From the IMG/VR virus record IMGVR_UViG_3300037502_001652, positions 1-20,443 of that record: a DNA stretch of 20,443 nt; one strand, given 5' to 3'. The position numbers were made by a program, and so were the translations under genes. This DNA is from a virus. Below are positions 1 to 15,157 of this stretch, one piece after another (the stretch's first letter is position 1; each line of letters begins with the position of its first letter). The notes below the pieces were generated by a model. That model did no database searches and had not been told where the DNA came from. It saw only the letters and a program-made list of their open reading frames with translations.

Positions 1-51
1 CCGCGCCTTGGTACCCCGCGGCTGCTTCGCAAAAAACTCCTGCAACGTCAT
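1..51 (-). CDS. Cro/YdaS-like transcriptional repressor, N-terminal fragment (runs off the left edge)
   Basis: Read on the minus strand, an ATG at 51-49 follows an excellent ribosome binding site (AAAGGAGGGG, 3-4 bases upstream). It opens a frame of 17 codons that is still open at the window edge: MTLQEFFAKQPRGTKAR. The MTLQ(E)-F/Y ... P-RG-x-x-A-R opening is typical of small phage Cro/YdaS-type helix-turn-helix repressors, where it leads into the first helices of the DNA-binding domain. The gene diverges from the + strand early operon, which is the usual position for a phage repressor, and a 17 bp palindrome lies just upstream of it. The HTH itself is outside the window, so the family is inferred from the start motif and the context only. 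Confidence 0.65.
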   Translation of the reverse strand, partial: MTLQEFFAKQPRGTKAR

Positions 52-72
52 ACACCCCTCCTTTAAGTTAAG

Positions 73-89
73 GTGAAACAATGTTACAC
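73..89. promoter_or_regulatory. Candidate operator: 17 bp near-perfect palindrome
   Basis: The sequence GTGAAACAATGTTACAC has an 8 bp left arm (GTGAAACA), a central A at 81, and a right arm (TGTTACAC). The reverse complement of the right arm is GTGTAACA, which matches the left arm at 7 of 8 positions. It sits in the intergenic region between the divergent repressor start (51) and the first early gene (166). A dimeric Cro/CI-like repressor would be expected to bind there, controlling its own gene and perhaps the early promoter. The palindrome is directly visible; binding is inferred. Confidence 0.5.
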
Positions 90-104
90 GAAATTAAATG
101 AAAG

Positions 105-133
105 TTGTACTTTTTTGATAGGTGGGTTACTAT
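105..133 (+). promoter_or_regulatory. Candidate early promoter (sigma70-like, weak match)
   Basis: TTGTAC (105-110), a 17 bp spacer and TACTAT (128-133) lie about 30 bp upstream of the first early gene's ribosome binding site. The -35 matches the consensus only in TTG and the -10 at four of six positions. The surrounding sequence is AT-rich. The -35 sits inside a 13 bp palindrome (101-113). The call rests on position as much as on motif quality, and other hexamer pairs in this AT-rich stretch are possible. Confidence 0.3.
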
Positions 134-165
134 TCTTTTGCACTCAACCACGACAGGAGGTCTAC

Positions 166-351
166 ATGGGTGAATGGCAGCAGTTGATGGAGGAGCGTCA
201 GCAGATGACCGAGGAGGCGCTGGTACGGGCTGAGCAGGGCATCGCGACGCAAGAGGACTGGAACATCATTTGGTCCGAATGTGGCTTGGCTAAGCGCCGG
301 CCTTTACTACCAATGCGAAAGGAAATTGAACATGGGTCTTATAGCGTCTGA
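166..351 (+). CDS. Small phage early protein, unknown function (61 aa)
   Basis: The ATG at 166 follows a strong ribosome binding site (ACAGGAGG, about 5 bases away) and gives a 61-residue charged, helical-looking protein (MGEWQQLMEERQQ...). An upstream in-frame GTG at 73 would add 31 residues, including a hydrophobic stretch. It is rejected because it lies in the operator/promoter region and has no comparable binding site. The gene is the first of the rightward operon and its end overlaps the next start (332) by 20 bp, which suggests translational coupling. No domain is recognised. Small acidic proteins of this kind commonly precede an SSB in phage early operons, but no role can be assigned. 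Confidence 0.7.
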   Translation: MGEWQQLMEERQQMTEEALVRAEQGIATQEDWNIIWSECGLAKRRPLLPMRKEIEHGSYSV

Positions 352-994
352 TAGCGGCAAAAGTTTTACCCCGATCCCGCCGGGAATGCATTTGGCGCGG
401 TGCTACCGCATCATTGATCTTGGTACTCAGAAGACTGAGTGGCAGGGCCAGATCAAGAGCCTCCCCAAGATCCTCGTGCAGTTCGAGGTGCATGGTGAGG
501 ACGACAACGGCAACCCCTTGAAAACATCTGAGGGCGAGCCGATGAGTATCAGCAAGAGATACACCCTATCGATTGGTGATAAGTCGACTCTTCGAGCTGA
601 CCTAGCATCTTGGCGTGGGCGTGATTTCACCCCGCAAGAAAAGCAAGGATTCTCGTTAAAAAACATTCTTGGTCACTGGGCAATGATCACTGTCTCTAAG
701 AATGTGGGGAAGGATGGTAAGGAGTTCACCAACATCGCCAACATCAATCCGGTGCCCAAGATCATCAAAGAACAAGGCCTGCCGGAAGGTATTAACCCGC
801 TGGTGAAATTCGACATTGATGACCCGGACATGGAGGTTTTTAATTCCTTGTCTGAGAAGCTGCAAGAGACCATCAAGTCTTCACCAGAATGGCAGATGTA
901 CCACGGTACCAAGACAGAGACCAAAGCGACCGACTATGCGAAAGCTAGCGGTAAGGGAGCGCTAAGTGATCTTGATGAAGAAATCCCCTTCTAG
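332..994 (+). CDS. Putative single-stranded DNA-binding protein
   Basis: This 220-residue protein has a ribosome binding site (AAAGGA) about 9 bases before the ATG at 332; the longer frame from a GTG at 281 has no such site and overlaps the preceding gene more. The N-terminus (GKSFTPIPPGMHLARCYRIIDLGTQ) and the strand-rich middle (KILVQFEVHGED, MSISKRYTLSI, HWAMITVSKN) fit an OB-fold-like phage protein family that is usually annotated as ssDNA-binding. The C-terminus is acidic and ends DLDEEIPF, very like the D/E-rich ...IPF tail by which SSBs recruit partner proteins. Expected role: coat ssDNA during phage replication or recombination in the cytoplasm, alongside the nuclease at 2699. The family call is by pattern recognition; the tail is the strongest direct evidence. 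Confidence 0.75.
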   Translation: MGLIASDSGKSFTPIPPGMHLARCYRIIDLGTQKTEWQGQIKSLPKILVQFEVHGEDDNGNPLKTSEGEPMSISKRYTLSIGDKSTLRADLASWRGRDFTPQEKQGFSLKNILGHWAMITVSKNVGKDGKEFTNIANINPVPKIIKEQGLPEGINPLVKFDIDDPDMEVFNSLSEKLQETIKSSPEWQMYHGTKTETKATDYAKASGKGALSDLDEEIPF

Positions 995-1277
995 TGGGTA
1001 TCAGCTCGGTCTTGATCTGCAAGCTCAGGGCATCAAGCGGGTCTCCAGTCAGCATCAGGACTGGTTGGCCCGTGCCCGGGCTGTAGCAGTAAAGATCGCA
1101 CGCGAAAACGGGGAGGTATCCAGCGACGATATCCACGAGGCCCTGCCTCTGCCTCCGGAGGCCAATCCGGCGTTGATGGGTGCCGTGTTCAAAAACATTG
1201 GCCTGCGCGTAGTGGGGTATCAGAACACGAGACGCCCCCAGGCTCATGGCCGATTGATCAGGGTGTACGGTCCATGA
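966..1277 (+). CDS. Small phage early protein, possible DNA-binding (103 aa)
   Basis: The frame opens with GTG at 966, 6 bases after AAGGGAG; an ATG at 975 is the alternative but is 15 bases from that site. The gene overlaps the SSB end by 29 bp and is coupled to the next gene by ATGA at 1274. The protein has a helical, Arg/Ala-rich half (QDWLARARAVAVKIARENGEVSSDDIHEAL) followed by PPEANPALMGAVFKN and GYQNTRRPQAHGRLIRVY. The pattern W-x3-AR ... NG-x-V-x2-DDI ... N-x3-GAVF ... G-x-R-x-x-HGR-x-I recurs in small phage proteins of replication regions and looks like a winged-helix-type fold. No catalytic residues are evident. A nucleic-acid-related role is inferred from context only. Confidence 0.75.
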   Translation: MILMKKSPSSGYQLGLDLQAQGIKRVSSQHQDWLARARAVAVKIARENGEVSSDDIHEALPLPPEANPALMGAVFKNIGLRVVGYQNTRRPQAHGRLIRVYGP

Positions 1278-1540
1278 AGAAGACTTTCACCATAAAAGAC
1301 TTTGCTAAAGACTTGCGGATATCCGAGAAGGTTGCGCGACGGCGTCTTAGCGACATGGAGATTAACCGTAAGGTGATGCGCGTGAGCGATGGATATCCAA
1401 TCGTCTACACCACGTCTTTTCATACCGCGAAGTGGCACGACCCATTCAACAAATGTATGCGAGGGGATCATGAAAAAATTATTGATTGTGTTATTGCTAG
1501 TTACGTCAAGCGCAAAAGCTCAGTTTCTGACGGGCAATGA
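1274..1540 (+). CDS. Small helix-turn-helix-type protein (88 aa)
   Basis: The gene starts at an ATG overlapping the previous stop (ATGA), so translation is probably coupled. The first 60 residues are basic and read as an HTH: FTIKDFAKDLRISEKVARRRLSD resembles helix-turn-recognition helix of MerR/excisionase-like or other small phage DNA-binding proteins, followed by a beta-type segment (VMRVSDGYPIVYTTSFHTAKW) and HDPFN. The last 24 codons run out of frame through the signal-peptide region of the next gene, a 71 bp overlap. That is long for this operon and suggests that the C-terminal tail is an extension past an ancestral stop. Likely a DNA-binding or regulatory protein; the target is unknown. 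Confidence 0.7.
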   Translation: MKKTFTIKDFAKDLRISEKVARRRLSDMEINRKVMRVSDGYPIVYTTSFHTAKWHDPFNKCMRGDHEKIIDCVIASYVKRKSSVSDGQ

Positions 1541-2331: not shown

Positions 2332-2706
2332 ATGAGAAAACCAATTTCAAAGATTGCAAAGATTACGAACTACCTTGCTAAGCATGGCACTACTGAAAAG
2401 GCGGGAGACGTCGCTAAAAAATTGAAGGTGAGCGTGGCGCTTGTGTATAAAGCACGAGCGCAATACGCCATACCCGCGGAAAAGTGGCCTGAACCCGCTC
2501 AGGCAGCCAACACCCGGCAGGAAGGTGGAAGCCACTATAAGACCCTGGCCATCCAGCCCTGGGATTACATCGTCCAGAATAATCTGGGGTTCCTGGAGGG
2601 CAACGTCATCAAGTATGTGACCCGCTGGAAAGATAAGGAGGGCGTGCAAGACCTTCAGAAGGCCCGTCACTTTTTGGACAAGCTCATCGAGGTAAACAAT
2701 GGCTGA
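2332..2706 (+). CDS. HTH + DUF3310 (gp1.7-like) protein
   Basis: ATG 2332 lies about 5 bases after AAGGGAAG; upstream in-frame starts fall inside the previous gene. Of 124 residues, the first ~50 form a basic HTH-like segment (ITNYLAKHGTTEKAGDVAKKLKVS, VALVYKARAQY). After a Pro/Ala linker, residues ~64-120 match DUF3310: GGSHYKTLAIQPWDYIVQ, NLGFLEGNVIKYVTRW, KEGVQDLQKARHFLDKLIE. In T7 the DUF3310 protein gp1.7 is a nucleotide kinase that affects dTTP/ddT metabolism, so a role in nucleotide supply or early host-phage control is plausible. The HTH suggests DNA binding as well. It overlaps the nuclease start by 8 bp. The domain call is strong; the activity in this fusion is unknown. Confidence 0.85.
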   Translation: MRKPISKIAKITNYLAKHGTTEKAGDVAKKLKVSVALVYKARAQYAIPAEKWPEPAQAANTRQEGGSHYKTLAIQPWDYIVQNNLGFLEGNVIKYVTRWKDKEGVQDLQKARHFLDKLIEVNNG

Positions 2707-3460
2707 GATCACCATCCGCGCTACTGAGGCGGGGCACTGGTACACCCGAGAGGGTGAGCCCATGTACACCATCGAGGCCGCCAAGGGCGGTTATAGGCCC
2801 ACCACGCTCCGCGATGCCCGCAAGCACAACCTAGTACCTAGCGTGACCACCATCATCAACGCGGCCGCGAAACCGGCCTTGTTGCAGTGGATGCAGAAGC
2901 AGGTGCTCCTGGCTGCGCTTACCCTGCCGAAGATCGCATCCGAGACCGAGGAGCAGTATTTCGAGCGGATCATCAACGACAGCAAAGAGCAGTCCCGTAT
3001 GGCCGCGGATGCCGGCACCGACATCCATGCTGCCATTCAGAACTACTACGAGGGCGGCGCGGTTAAGTGGCCAGACCATACCAAGAGCATCGAGGCCTTC
3101 CGCTCCGCGGTGGACCAAGCTTTCGGACCCCAGGTCTGGAAGTGCGAGCAGTCATTCGCCCACGAGATGGGATTCGGTGGAAAGGTCGACATGCACTGTG
3201 ACAGCGTCGTGGTGGATATCAAGACCAAGGAGTTTGCTGACCCAGACAAGGTCGACGTCTACGACGAGCACCTGATGCAGTTGGCTGCGTACCGGGTTGG
3301 CCTGGGAATGCAGAACGCTCGATGCGCCAACGTCTTTGTGTCTCGATCGGTACAGGGGCTCGTGGTCGTTAAGGAGTGGAGCTCGGAGGATCTGCGTAGG
3401 GGCTGGCAGATGTTTTACCATCTGTTAAATTTCTGGCAAGCAAAGAACAATCACCAATGA
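2699..3460 (+). CDS. PD-(D/E)XK exonuclease, RecB/Cas4-like
   Basis: This 253-residue protein carries the motif series of RecB-family nucleases: SVTTII near residue 48, GTDIH with H110, E150 in KCEQSF, GGKVDM with the metal-binding D164, VVDIKTK with D173 and K175, and QLAAY (Q194, Y198), the QxxxY motif that marks the RecB/Cas4 subgroup. All expected catalytic residues are present, so it should be active and Mg-dependent. In phages such enzymes resect DNA ends for single-strand annealing recombination or process replication intermediates, working with an SSB such as the one at 332. No cysteine cluster for a Fe-S site of true Cas4 is apparent. It starts 8 bp inside the previous gene and ends in an ATGA overlap with the next. 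Confidence 0.9.
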   Translation: MAEITIRATEAGHWYTREGEPMYTIEAAKGGYRPTTLRDARKHNLVPSVTTIINAAAKPALLQWMQKQVLLAALTLPKIASETEEQYFERIINDSKEQSRMAADAGTDIHAAIQNYYEGGAVKWPDHTKSIEAFRSAVDQAFGPQVWKCEQSFAHEMGFGGKVDMHCDSVVVDIKTKEFADPDKVDVYDEHLMQLAAYRVGLGMQNARCANVFVSRSVQGLVVVKEWSSEDLRRGWQMFYHLLNFWQAKNNHQ

Positions 3461-3823: not shown

Positions 3824-3840
3824 CATCAACGGTGGAGAAG

Positions 3841-5091
3841 TTAAGGCGCCATTAAATCCATGGGTGGGGGAGGCGGTTCAGCTCCCCTTTTTAATCCTTG
3901 CCGAAGCATTGGAGCACCAATAGCAAGCGGCAAACCAATCGGAGCAGTTGCGGGGAATAGCGACAAGCCCGCCCCCAAAGCTCCAAGACCAGAAAGCCCT
4001 ACGTCAACATAGTCTGGCTTTTCTTTCTGAAACTCTCTATAGCCCCCCAGAGCCTCTCCAAGACCTGACGCCAGGGCCAAGGGTGGCAAAGCATACCGAG
4101 CGGCACCACGACCCGTTGCGGTGGCTGCCTGACCTAGTGGGGTCTGAGCCATGCGTTGAAACATACTGGTAACCTCCTGCAAACCAGTTCGCACAGGCGG
4201 GGCATTCTGAGCTGCGATACGCCCAATATCCAGCGGGGCACCAATTCCGTACTTCTGCGCCAAAGGTTTACTGACCTTTCCGCTTGGCATAGCCCGCCGG
4301 TAATCAGAAGCAGCCTCCACCACCGACTCAGTACCCGGTCTGACAACGCCTGTGACGGCCTGGGCCCATCTTTGACCTGGAGTGGTAGCTTGCACCTGAC
4401 CGGGGCCTGGGAGGGCGCCTGCGGGGGCCGGTGGGGCTGTACGCATGGTTCCCATAGCGGTAGGCGGTGCAGGCGGCTGTGCGGGCGCCTGGGGGAACCC
4501 ACGGACCACGTCTTTTGCCAACCGGCCAGTAGTCAGTGCACCACCAGCGATGCCACCAAGAACCTGCCCCGTGCGGCGCTCGGCCTCCACGTCTGCGTCG
4601 CTGATTAATTCACGTAATACAGGCTGCGAGCGCAGCGCGGCATCTGCTTCATTAAGCAATCGACGGTTATCAGGTTCCATTTCTTCAGGACCACCAAAAG
4701 CTTCATCTGCGGACGGAGCCGCAAAAACCGAGGGCACATTTTTGCCAAAGCTCTGAATTAAGCTTTCAGCATTGAAGATAGCCTCGTCCGGAAGGTCCGC
4801 AATATTCATTGACTCGGCGAAATCCGAACCAGACCCGCCCGCAAAGAATGCCGCCGCAATCTTTACGGGGTCGCCTTTTAACGTTTGACCAAGGTCTTTA
4901 ATTGTGTTGATGTAAACGCCGATATTCTCGTTGACCTCTTCCGGAGAGTCGCCCATTAAAGATGGCTGAAACTGGCTCTCTTGAAAAATTAGCTTGAGTA
5001 CAAAGTCTGGGTTGAGCCCCGACTTCCGCGCTTCCTGAACAATTTTCTCAGCGAGAAAAATCTGTTCATCAGTCATGTCGCGTGGGTTCAT
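3841..5091 (-). CDS. Virion/ejection protein with shortened lytic transglycosylase-like N-terminus (416 aa)
   Basis: This is the last late gene; its ATG overlaps the upstream stop (ATGA). Residues ~8-95 resemble a goose-type lysozyme/SLT domain: GLNPDFVLKLIFQESQFQPS has the E38-S-x-F-x-P catalytic-Glu motif, and NENIGVYINTIKDLGQTLKGD with KIAAAFFAGG corresponds to the usual ...YL..L...F.GD...AAYNAG block. The GA-x-GLMQ segment normally between them is missing and AYN is replaced by AFF, so activity is doubtful. Residues ~200-240 are a Pro/Ala linker and the C-terminus is Gly/Ala/Leu-rich and hydrophobic (LSGLGALGAGLSLFPATAPI), possibly membrane-active. T7 gp16 also carries its transglycosylase at the N-terminus and is the last internal core protein gene; a comparable role in crossing the cell wall during DNA entry is inferred. 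Confidence 0.7.
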   Translation of the reverse strand: MNPRDMTDEQIFLAEKIVQEARKSGLNPDFVLKLIFQESQFQPSLMGDSPEEVNENIGVYINTIKDLGQTLKGDPVKIAAAFFAGGSGSDFAESMNIADLPDEAIFNAESLIQSFGKNVPSVFAAPSADEAFGGPEEMEPDNRRLLNEADAALRSQPVLRELISDADVEAERRTGQVLGGIAGGALTTGRLAKDVVRGFPQAPAQPPAPPTAMGTMRTAPPAPAGALPGPGQVQATTPGQRWAQAVTGVVRPGTESVVEAASDYRRAMPSGKVSKPLAQKYGIGAPLDIGRIAAQNAPPVRTGLQEVTSMFQRMAQTPLGQAATATGRGAARYALPPLALASGLGEALGGYREFQKEKPDYVDVGLSGLGALGAGLSLFPATAPIGLPLAIGAPMLRQGLKRGAEPPPPPMDLMAP

Positions 5092-12675: not shown

Positions 12676-12935
12676 GGTCCAATAACCTGTGGGTTAATAG
12701 CAGCAAGCAGAGCTGATGCCCAATCAAACCAGTTATCAAATTGATCCGTGCTTGGTATCGCTTCGTTGGTGAAGATATCAATTGCTTTGAGGCCATCTCC
12801 CCACTCTTTCCAGTCGGTCTGAGGCGTGGGTATCGCAAGTTGATTAGCTGCGTACTGTTCGCACATAAGCGAAGCCCAAGATTCAAAAGTGTGAAACCTT
12901 GGATCGTATACGAGTGGAGGCGAAACGCTAGACAT
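12672..12935 (-). CDS. Small late protein, unknown function (87 aa)
   Basis: This 87-residue, acidic and tryptophan-rich protein begins MSSVSPPLVYDPRFHTFESW and contains WASLMCEQYAANQLAIP, WKEWGDGLKAIDIFTNEA and FDNWFDWASALLAAIN. It starts at a TAATG junction with the nozzle gene and ends in ATGA with the GNAT-like gene, so it is translationally coupled on both sides. No family is recognised. Position suggests a small tail or assembly protein. The spaced Trp/Phe residues in repeated helix-like units suggest a compact helical bundle. Confidence 0.7.
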   Translation of the reverse strand: MSSVSPPLVYDPRFHTFESWASLMCEQYAANQLAIPTPQTDWKEWGDGLKAIDIFTNEAIPSTDQFDNWFDWASALLAAINPQVIGP

Positions 12936-15157
12936 TAGTATCCTCTGACATCACCGTAAGTTGCGCTTAGTAACACGCGTCCAAGCTGATAGTTCCCACC
13001 GGCCTCATCAGACTCAAATTTAAGCCTCAATTCGCGGCGCTGTTCTTTCATATCAATCTTGTTGGTGTCCGGTCCAAAGATGTACGGATTGGAAGTGTCG
13101 TCTTCAGACTGCGCGTAGGGGCGACCAGTCACATAAAGCTTCATATTGCCCGACATCAAAAAGTCTGGCTCCACCCGCTCAAGTCTTAGCCATCGATTGA
13201 GACCTTCCATAGAGGGCTGAGAAGGACCGCCGGTTACCAAACCCAAATCGCTAGTCTCAAAATAGGACTGAATTGCTAGCGTGTTTTGCCCGTCCACTTC
13301 ATCAGTACCGATCTCGTGCTGGTATATCTTTACAAGATCGCCCTGAGTTCGGAACGTAAGAATCTCGGTGCCTGATGCTGTAGCGTTTGCATCCATGACA
13401 ATGTTCTGCACCCATATGGTGTCTACATCAATGCTGAACCCAGAACCACCGCCGATATCTGCGTCATCCACCGCAATCGTGTCTCCGACCTGGTACCCGG
13501 CTCCCGGGTTAACAATCGTCACCGTGGTGACAACACCCCCAGAAACCACAATATTTGCTGTAGCGGCGCCACCAGACCCGCCGGTAATTGCAACTCCGGT
13601 GTAGGTGTTGTCTGCATATCCTGACCCCGCTATAAGGTTTGTTAACGCGTTGATTGCACTTGTCTGAATTTCCTGCACCTGTGTACCCACAGGAATTCCA
13701 GGACCGACAATTACCTGCCCGACCTGCACCTGAGAGTTGTAAGTGTTTGAGGGGAGGTACGGGCTGCCGTTGGTCGTCGTGTAAGTCTCGGTGAAAACGA
13801 TCTCAGAGACCGTTGCCGGCCATGTCGCAGCGATCGGATAGGCAAACACCTGGGAAAAGTACCCAGCGGTCCTGCGGGCTCCTATAGCCTCTCCTGCGTC
13901 ATACCAAGTATTTTCACGGACGTTGTAAATAATTGCGTCATTGCACTCGGTTGAGTTGCCGCGTGGGTAATACCACCAAATCTCCCCGTACCTGGGGACT
14001 TTCTGAGCCCAAACTTTCTGACGCTGAGAGTAGTTCAGGTTGTCAAAGAAATAGTTCTGATTCATTGAGTTTGGAATCTCTTTGACCGTTCCATTGTAGA
14101 GAAGGAACCGGTCTACACCGCACCAGTAGTAGATACCGTCGTACTCAATGACGGATTGCGATGACATGATCGAGGTCTGGCTCGAAATAATGTCGTACCG
14201 CCAGAAAGTCGGAGCTGCATAATCAGCCGTTCCTGCAATTCCCAAGGACTGCGGAGCGTAGGACACACGGATTAAGCTATCAAGGCTCCAGAATAGGCCT
14301 GAAGGGCTGTTAGAGCCACCTCGAACCGGTAGCCCTTGAACGATCTTTCCGGTGGCCACGTTGTTTTCGTTCGCATCAGATGAAACCCAATCTTGGGCGT
14401 TACCGGCCGAACAGTTACGAATGAGACCATTGTTTCCATAAACGAAGACGTAAGGGTGCAGAACGACCACGCCGCCAGACACATCAACGTTATTGTCGAA
14501 GGTAGCGGTGACTGTTCCTGCGGAAACCGAGTTATTCAGCCCGATTGAAGTGCCGTTCACCGAAATGACCTCGGTTCCTGCGGGTATACCCGAACCTGTG
14601 ACTGTCTGGCCCACTCCTATTAATGGATTAACCACTGCAACAGTGACCGTGGCGGTGCCGGTGGCCGTAATCGTGTCGGTAAAGACACCAATCTTGCTCA
14701 TGGTCGTGCCGTTGATATCGCCAATCAACACCGGAGTGTTAATCGTGTCGTCGATTGAACCTAAGTCTTGCCCAGGGTGGGCGACCAAGCTTTGAACACC
14801 AGCGCCGGCAACATCAAAAAAACCGTCAAATTGCCACAGATTAAGGTCTGAGGCGGTGAAATTGTTGAGGGTGAAATTCTGAATGCCAGCCCCGATGCCG
14901 TTGTCATCAATCGTCAGCACTTGCAGGCCATTGTTATACCCGCTAAAGATCTGCGTGAAGTTGTTCTGACTATTGATCCAGATGCCTCGACTAGGCCCCT
15001 TGAGTTCATCAGAGATAACTCGAAATCCGCCCATCTTGCGTGGCCGACCACGCTGAAACCTTACCCACCGGCCATCGTTGTAGAACTGCTTGTCAAGGAT
15101 TGTTCCATCGCGCTGTATTCCTGGCTTGGTGTCGATGGAAAAGACTTTTTCGGTCAT
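12935..15157 (-). CDS. Tail tubular protein B / nozzle-like protein (740 aa)
   Basis: The N-terminus has the typical phage nozzle signature: PGIQRDGTILDKQFYNDGRW followed by VRFQRGRPRKMGGF. Repeated short beta segments follow (NNFTQIFSGYNNGLQVLTID, HPYVFVYGNNGLIRNCSAG, EYDGIYYWCGVDRFLLYNG, NTWYDAGEAIGARRTAGYF), as in the beta-propeller-type core of T7 gp12 and P22 gp10 relatives. Two extra modules interrupt it: residues ~160-225 (VGQTVTGSGIPAGTEVI) and ~475-590 (VGQVIVGPGIPVGTQV, then GSGYADNTYTGVAITGGSG and VNPGAGYQVGDTIAVDD), the latter like repeats in aquatic phage structural proteins. Role: lower tail tube that gates DNA exit. It follows the adaptor and fibre-like genes and shares TAATG junctions with both neighbours. 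Assignment by signature and synteny. Confidence 0.8.
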   Translation of the reverse strand: MTEKVFSIDTKPGIQRDGTILDKQFYNDGRWVRFQRGRPRKMGGFRVISDELKGPSRGIWINSQNNFTQIFSGYNNGLQVLTIDDNGIGAGIQNFTLNNFTASDLNLWQFDGFFDVAGAGVQSLVAHPGQDLGSIDDTINTPVLIGDINGTTMSKIGVFTDTITATGTATVTVAVVNPLIGVGQTVTGSGIPAGTEVISVNGTSIGLNNSVSAGTVTATFDNNVDVSGGVVVLHPYVFVYGNNGLIRNCSAGNAQDWVSSDANENNVATGKIVQGLPVRGGSNSPSGLFWSLDSLIRVSYAPQSLGIAGTADYAAPTFWRYDIISSQTSIMSSQSVIEYDGIYYWCGVDRFLLYNGTVKEIPNSMNQNYFFDNLNYSQRQKVWAQKVPRYGEIWWYYPRGNSTECNDAIIYNVRENTWYDAGEAIGARRTAGYFSQVFAYPIAATWPATVSEIVFTETYTTTNGSPYLPSNTYNSQVQVGQVIVGPGIPVGTQVQEIQTSAINALTNLIAGSGYADNTYTGVAITGGSGGAATANIVVSGGVVTTVTIVNPGAGYQVGDTIAVDDADIGGGSGFSIDVDTIWVQNIVMDANATASGTEILTFRTQGDLVKIYQHEIGTDEVDGQNTLAIQSYFETSDLGLVTGGPSQPSMEGLNRWLRLERVEPDFLMSGNMKLYVTGRPYAQSEDDTSNPYIFGPDTNKIDMKEQRRELRLKFESDEAGGNYQLGRVLLSATYGDVRGY

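Follow-up and report, generated by a model that had tools for sequence, protein, structure and literature searches.

A probable Cro-type brake on early genes, with paired operators and no CI or integrase detected, in a family of uncultivated phages

In phage lambda, Cro has a lytic duty, repressing its own gene and closing both early operons once it has accumulated, and the cI-rex block separates the two early promoters, PL and PR. YdaS of the cryptic prophage CP-933P in E. coli O157:H7 has been described as an analogue of Cro whose footprint covers both promoters of its region; 18-bp palindromes with the half-site GTTTAGTAA occur there (PMC8630535). That study leaves open whether these repeats belong to YdaS or to PaaR2, both of which bind the region, and gives the precise YdaS binding sequences as still to be determined (PMC8630535). 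A further YdaS-type gene is found in the gonococcal record NZ_CP119142.1 (locus L229), which we read as a prophage; the order there is YdaS-type gene, divergent S24-type CI gene and a homologue of PHROG_862, a protein group of unknown function. MW202545.1 is an uncultivated phage from Manatee Spring, deposited as a complete circle of 57,457 bp. Phage SA97, which is reported to have an integrase and to be missing cI- and cro-like repressors (PMC4632378), was considered as a precedent and set aside as a different case. A small, non-exhaustive literature search did not find a description of the phage group considered here.

The stretch of DNA analyzed (the window) is the 20,443-base virus record IMGVR_UViG_3300037502_001652. 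A preliminary description had placed at its left end a repressor-controlled master switch working through a single strong 17-bp palindromic site and predicting a temperate or chronically regulated phage. The divergent gene pair in the window is real, and we consider it likely that it forms a hub of early control with two promoters, at which Cro alone would act to brake the early genes, most probably in virulent phages. The left end carries the following features, in window coordinates:

1-51, minus strand: 5' end of the gene for a YdaS/Cro-type repressor, truncated where the contig stops, 17 codons (MTLQEFFAKQPRGTKAR), start codon at 49-51
57-62, minus strand: AGGAGG, ribosome binding site for the repressor gene, read from the sequence
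71-89, minus strand: candidate left operator OL, GTGTA-N9-CACCT, in the register of the family and over the leftward promoter, the best matrix match in 51-165, aligned with the conserved OL
73-89, no strand: 17-bp palindrome GTGAAACAATGTTACAC, overlapping OL and not itself conserved
81-86, minus strand: leftward promoter -10, TAACAT (TATGAT in many relatives), placed by alignment with relatives
105-110, plus strand: rightward early promoter -35, TTGTAC, aligned with the TTGTAT/C of relatives
105-123, plus strand: position of the right operator OR, TTGTA-N9-TAGGT (TTGTA-N9-TAAAC in many relatives), second half lost or changed
128-133, plus strand: rightward early promoter -10, TACTAT, 17 bases past the -35
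155-160, plus strand: AGGAGG, strong ribosome binding site for the first rightward gene, read from the sequence
166-351, plus strand: first rightward early gene, 61 residues, ATG at 166
335-994, plus strand: second rightward gene, PHROG_862, function unknown (E 5.2e-25)

Like lambda Cro, the product of the minus-strand gene is a small repressor encoded first in the early operon on the replication side and would act at both early promoters; in lambda, however, cI-rex lies between the promoters, whereas those of the present family stand back to back within about 120 bp. The predicted fold is that of CP-933P YdaS (TM 0.86; PDB 8co2, 8c7k), and the CP-933P half-site, as reported, includes GTTTA, which is found here, and is close to the GTKTA of the present family (PMC8630535). 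The palindromes described for CP-933P measure 18 bp, against 19 bp here, and its CI analogue PaaR2 lies divergent to YdaS with YdaT after YdaS (PMC8630535), whereas neither was found in the relatives searched and the PHROG_862 operon takes the divergent place. The gonococcal locus likewise has its YdaS-type gene on one strand and a PHROG_862 homologue (40%) on the other, but an S24-type CI gene is divergent to the YdaS gene, some 3 kb before the PHROG_862 homologue; this gene alone takes 699 bp, against a start-to-start distance between repressor and PHROG_862 genes of 233 to 503 bp in 79 loci of the present family. We infer that the present layout corresponds to that of L229 minus the CI block, with no direction of change implied. 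By its annotation MW202545.1 has the same gene pair in the same two-direction layout, and its structural protein is 51% identical over 77% of the window's; its intergenic region differs in being without the 19-bp motif. The window's own structural protein (12935-15157, minus strand, 740 residues) also shows 43% identity over 66% with Caulobacter phages RW, RLK, KcrB and GB2A, a similarity that links the virion of the group to those phages.

Of the minus-strand gene only the start, 17 codons long, falls within the window, the remainder being cut off by the contig end; the start codon and the strong ribosome binding site noted in the preliminary description are both present in the sequence. The same frame is complete in a 56-kb contig (L003) with 92% identity to the window's first 1540 bases, where it forms an ORF of 68 residues. 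This protein scores narrowly above the cut-off of Pfam YdaS PF15943 (E 1.5e-7; 31.6 bits, cut-off 30) and matches PHROG_35, "transcriptional repressor" (E 1.5e-10). Its AlphaFold2 model (pLDDT 93.5, 27-row alignment) has YdaS of CP-933P as top PDB match (8co2, TM 0.86, Foldseek E 2e-3) and Cro of Xfaso 1 as the second-closest structure, with no Foldseek PDB match at E ≤ 0.001. Judged by profile and modelled fold, the L003 homologue is a predicted helix-turn-helix protein of the YdaS/Cro type, in agreement with the earlier expectations of a Cro/YdaS-type repressor facing the first early gene and of an HTH protein of about 60 to 100 residues on leftward extension. Across 15 relatives, the PF15943 profile search gave one YdaS match per genome in all 15, above the cut-off in 14, while HTH_3 matched 7 of the 15 records at E ≤ 0.1, one of them above the cut-off, all seven places overlapping the YdaS places.

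Relatives were collected with the second rightward gene (335-994) as anchor, and the best 80 of 228 loci were taken, picked by similarity and with near-duplicates among them. The divergent repressor/PHROG_862 pair is present in 79 of these 80; in the remaining locus (L076) the contig stops about 20 bp upstream of the PHROG_862 gene. An exact 20-mer scan for close relatives of the window returned only the contigs of L003 and L004, and a scan using the repressor protein returned the L003 contig again together with L137. In the window, the first rightward gene (166-351) matched nothing in PHROG at E ≤ 0.01 and no Pfam family above cut-off. A heuristic ORF listing of the L003 contig, which includes some spurious ORFs, places a junction between a short rightward operon, with the PHROG_862 protein and a PD-(D/E)XK exonuclease-like protein, and a long leftward direction of transcription, in which DUF1376 and RusA genes come after the repressor gene and structural genes lie farther along in the same direction. 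Because the pair occurs in 79 of the 80 loci and the divergent junction is seen in L003 and MW202545, the position looks like a regulatory hub, which upholds the place that the preliminary description had given to its master switch and provides an uncultivated phage lineage with a defined, testable regulatory hub. Two neighboring DUF1376 genes lie in the L003 leftward operon (1748-2506 and 2634-2960, minus strand) with a RusA-type gene beyond, and a winged-helix protein is encoded at 3827-4237 (minus strand; SarA/Rot-type Pfam match, E 3.8e-6), which could be a second regulator.

Alignment of the intergenic regions (46 non-redundant of 80) recovered two back-to-back promoters and not the 17-bp palindrome. 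In many relatives the leftward promoter reads GTGTATGAT-N3-CTTAAAC and the rightward promoter TTGTAT-N17-TACAGT with TTAAA within the spacer, TGTA-N9-TAAAC being common to both. A sigma-70 consensus scan of window positions 1-1500 gave no site above the scan threshold. The conserved signal of the family is a 19-bp inverted repeat, GTGTA-N9-TAAAC/TACAC, which lies over the leftward -10 and again over the rightward -35 and spacer. Among 50 non-redundant regions (86 distinct regions thinned at 88% similarity), strict TGTA-N9-TAAAC is present in the left arm of 16 and the right arm of 18, against shuffle means of 0.02 and 0.04; the other spacings from 4 to 14 gave a single match (left arm, x = 11), and the opposite strand of the 50 regions gave none. 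Relaxing the second half to TWMAC raises the counts to 26 left and 19 right arms of 50, and this form also yields 10 of 50 matches at spacing 6 in the right arm on the opposite strand. A left-arm matrix scores at or above the shuffle 95% point in 37 of the 50 right arms, although in some of those passing (L209, L080 and L178) the match falls at the rightward -10 and not at the -35; the 13 that fail are L081, L037, L177, L012, L224, L062, L213, L067, L004, L215, L143, L138 and L142. A left site scoring at least 10 is absent in 8 of the 50 regions, including the distant L138, L142 and L143. The single strong site proposed for this switch is not supported: the family has a putative site at each promoter, of which the window shows only the left one recognizably.

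A Cro-type early brake with paired operators is probable for the family and less certain in detail for the window, where the left copy is weak and no right copy was found. Scored with a matrix built from the left arms, that of L004 excluded (41 of 49, those with scores over 10), the candidate OL at 71-89 is the best match in 51-165, its score of 4.2 lying below the shuffle 95% point of 6.8, and no right operator was recognized by the matrix in the same interval. The window, L003 and L004 retain the first halves of both sites, GTGTA in the left one and TTGTA in the right one, with second halves of CACCT on the left (TACCT in L004) and TAGGT on the right, and the site gap in this clade is 15 bases against 24 in 32 of 78 rows. 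Since L008 and L012, whose helices read SKTW, have TTACCT as second half, the 71-89 sequence is plausible as a variant left operator, and we treat it as a candidate. With one clear half-site in OL and a degenerate OR, the window clade allows autorepression to be proposed more safely than control of the rightward operon.

From the computed gene pair, predicted fold, paired motif, co-variation of the motif with the recognition helix and missing integrase and CI matches we infer dimer binding, repression and its timing in the following form, as well as the life cycle discussed below. A small YdaS-family repressor would head the leftward operon, opposite the PHROG_862 operon, and a repressor dimer would bind the 19-bp inverted repeat (GTKTA being the half-site) that covers -10/+1 of the promoter of the repressor gene itself (OL). 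In many relatives the dimer would also bind the second copy over the rightward -35 and spacer (OR), such that the accumulated repressor may repress itself and close both early operons. The layout resembles a lambdoid immunity region minus CI.

Searches of 23 long relatives (0/15 and 0/8; records of 41-58 kb) gave no match to tyrosine integrase PF00589 or to the S24-type repressor PF00717, and none to serine recombinase PF00239 in 15 relatives; the control searches in 14 genomes were above cut-off in 14 for tyrosine integrase, 10 for serine recombinase and 10 for S24. The integrase negatives come from contigs without a completeness mark, MW202545 alone being deposited as a complete circle, and these phages may carry unusual integrases or repressors. 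Of what defines a lambdoid lysis-lysogeny region, neither a CI divergent from Cro nor an integrase was found, on contigs that may be incomplete. As CI and integrase were not found, the hub most likely serves virulent phages as a means of braking their early transcription.

A sole repressor might also maintain an unintegrated repressed state, as in pseudolysogeny or a phage-plasmid, with neither CI nor integrase. A repressor acting over both early operons could in principle silence the genome, and the single YdaS match per genome in 15 of 15 is in keeping with this. However, ParA-type PF13614 was matched in 0 of 21 records (control above cut-off in 14 of 14 genomes), the only PHROG_862 matches in the plasmid collection are two gonococcal records of 2.2 Mb, chromosome-like in size, and the repressor gene itself heads the replication-side operon, like Cro. 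We consider this quite unlikely.

The original proposal, a temperate master switch in which lysogeny is held via one strong 17-bp site at 73-89, appears to us very unlikely. The palindrome GTGAAACAATGTTACAC is present as described, with arms matching at 7 of 8 positions and an identical sequence in L003, and it overlaps the leftward promoter. It stems from the same GTGTA half as OL, read in a 17-bp register. An equally good 17-bp palindrome arose in 7.4% of 1000 dinucleotide shuffles of 51-165 (P 0.07), an equally good one of any length from 12 to 24 in 17.6% of 1000 shuffles (P 0.18), and the whole window contains 9 such 17-mers against 7.8 expected. The degenerate form GTGWAACANTGTTWCAC matched 52 stretches in the viral collection, one of them on the L003 contig, and in the other loci taken from that scan (L085-L135) neither the repressor nor its neighbor gene was matched. 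Within the family this form of the palindrome was found again only in L003; the other relatives carrying the gene pair lacked it, the outcome that the preliminary description had named as refuting. L004 has a repressor with 84% identity, yet the left arm of the palindrome is altered there. The palindrome was rejected as a conserved operator on the shuffles and the relatives, and the exact 17-bp form does not stand as the operator. The temperate life cycle fares no better, with neither integrase nor S24 matched in 23 of 23 long relatives, and a Cro-like gene is by itself no sign of a temperate phage. The perfect palindrome GTGTAACANTGTTACAC is found outside the family in 6, 7 and 6 copies in the viral contigs L087, L090 and L114 and in 2 copies each in L105 and L096, several of them shortly upstream of start codons, where it resembles an operator or promoter element in multiple copies; this recurrence in several copies means that the class of site may function elsewhere.

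That the gene is the toxin or antitoxin of a YdaS/YdaT pair, as the Pfam name of PF15943 (YdaS_toxin) and the "antitoxin" annotation in MW202545 might suggest, is extremely improbable, given that YdaT PF06254 was matched in 0 of 21 relatives at E ≤ 0.1 (a weak control, above cut-off in 1 of 14 genomes) and that YdaS and YdaT are argued to be Cro and CII analogues and no toxin-antitoxin pair (PMC8630535).

For the Cro-type early brake, the relation between repressor and operator can be followed across 78 regions, those whose left site scores 10 or more. The second half of OL is TTTCAC in all 15 rows with a TKQW helix, against 0 of 63 other rows, and TTACAA in 6 of 10 SRTW rows; the variable residues begin helix 26-33 of the AlphaFold2 model. 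The printed spacing is misread in 22 of the 78 rows (as 11-14), an earlier TTGCA/TTGTA word having been picked, and in 14 of the 17 rows with spacing 25 the word is TTGCA and not TTGTA. As far as the aligned regions tell, the second half of the putative operator varies together with the predicted recognition helix. Shared descent, together with the operator adjoining the gene, makes the association weaker than these counts suggest. A quick PHROG_862 protein tree, made without bootstrap, puts the TKQW rows (5 of 52) at two or more separate positions that are modestly supported. Co-variation and scattered TKQW placement are compatible with a lineage that has retained Cro, but no CI, in the form of an exchangeable cassette whose repressor and operator change specificity together, a reading that we put forward tentatively and regard as unlikely. 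If true, differing specificities would lead to repressor-mediated exclusion of cassette-sharing relatives without lysogeny. The natural helix-operator pairs are in any case material for decoding YdaS-type DNA recognition.

A scan of bacterial genomes for prophages gave five loci. Three of these (L141-L143) are metagenome-bin contigs that carry the repressor, one of them labelled Limnohabitans, and judged from these three contigs the hosts of the lineage are perhaps freshwater betaproteobacteria. L144, on a long isolate contig of Extensimonas perlucida, was considered as a prophage of the family; because it is missing among the repressor matches listed and has an integrase-like ORF, it was treated as a different element. 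Within about 10 kb it has the integrase-like ORF, a PHROG_862 homologue (34%) and capsid-like genes, the integrase and capsid calls having been made by eye from the ORF list, and it is flanked by apparent host genes; it is possibly a phage satellite.
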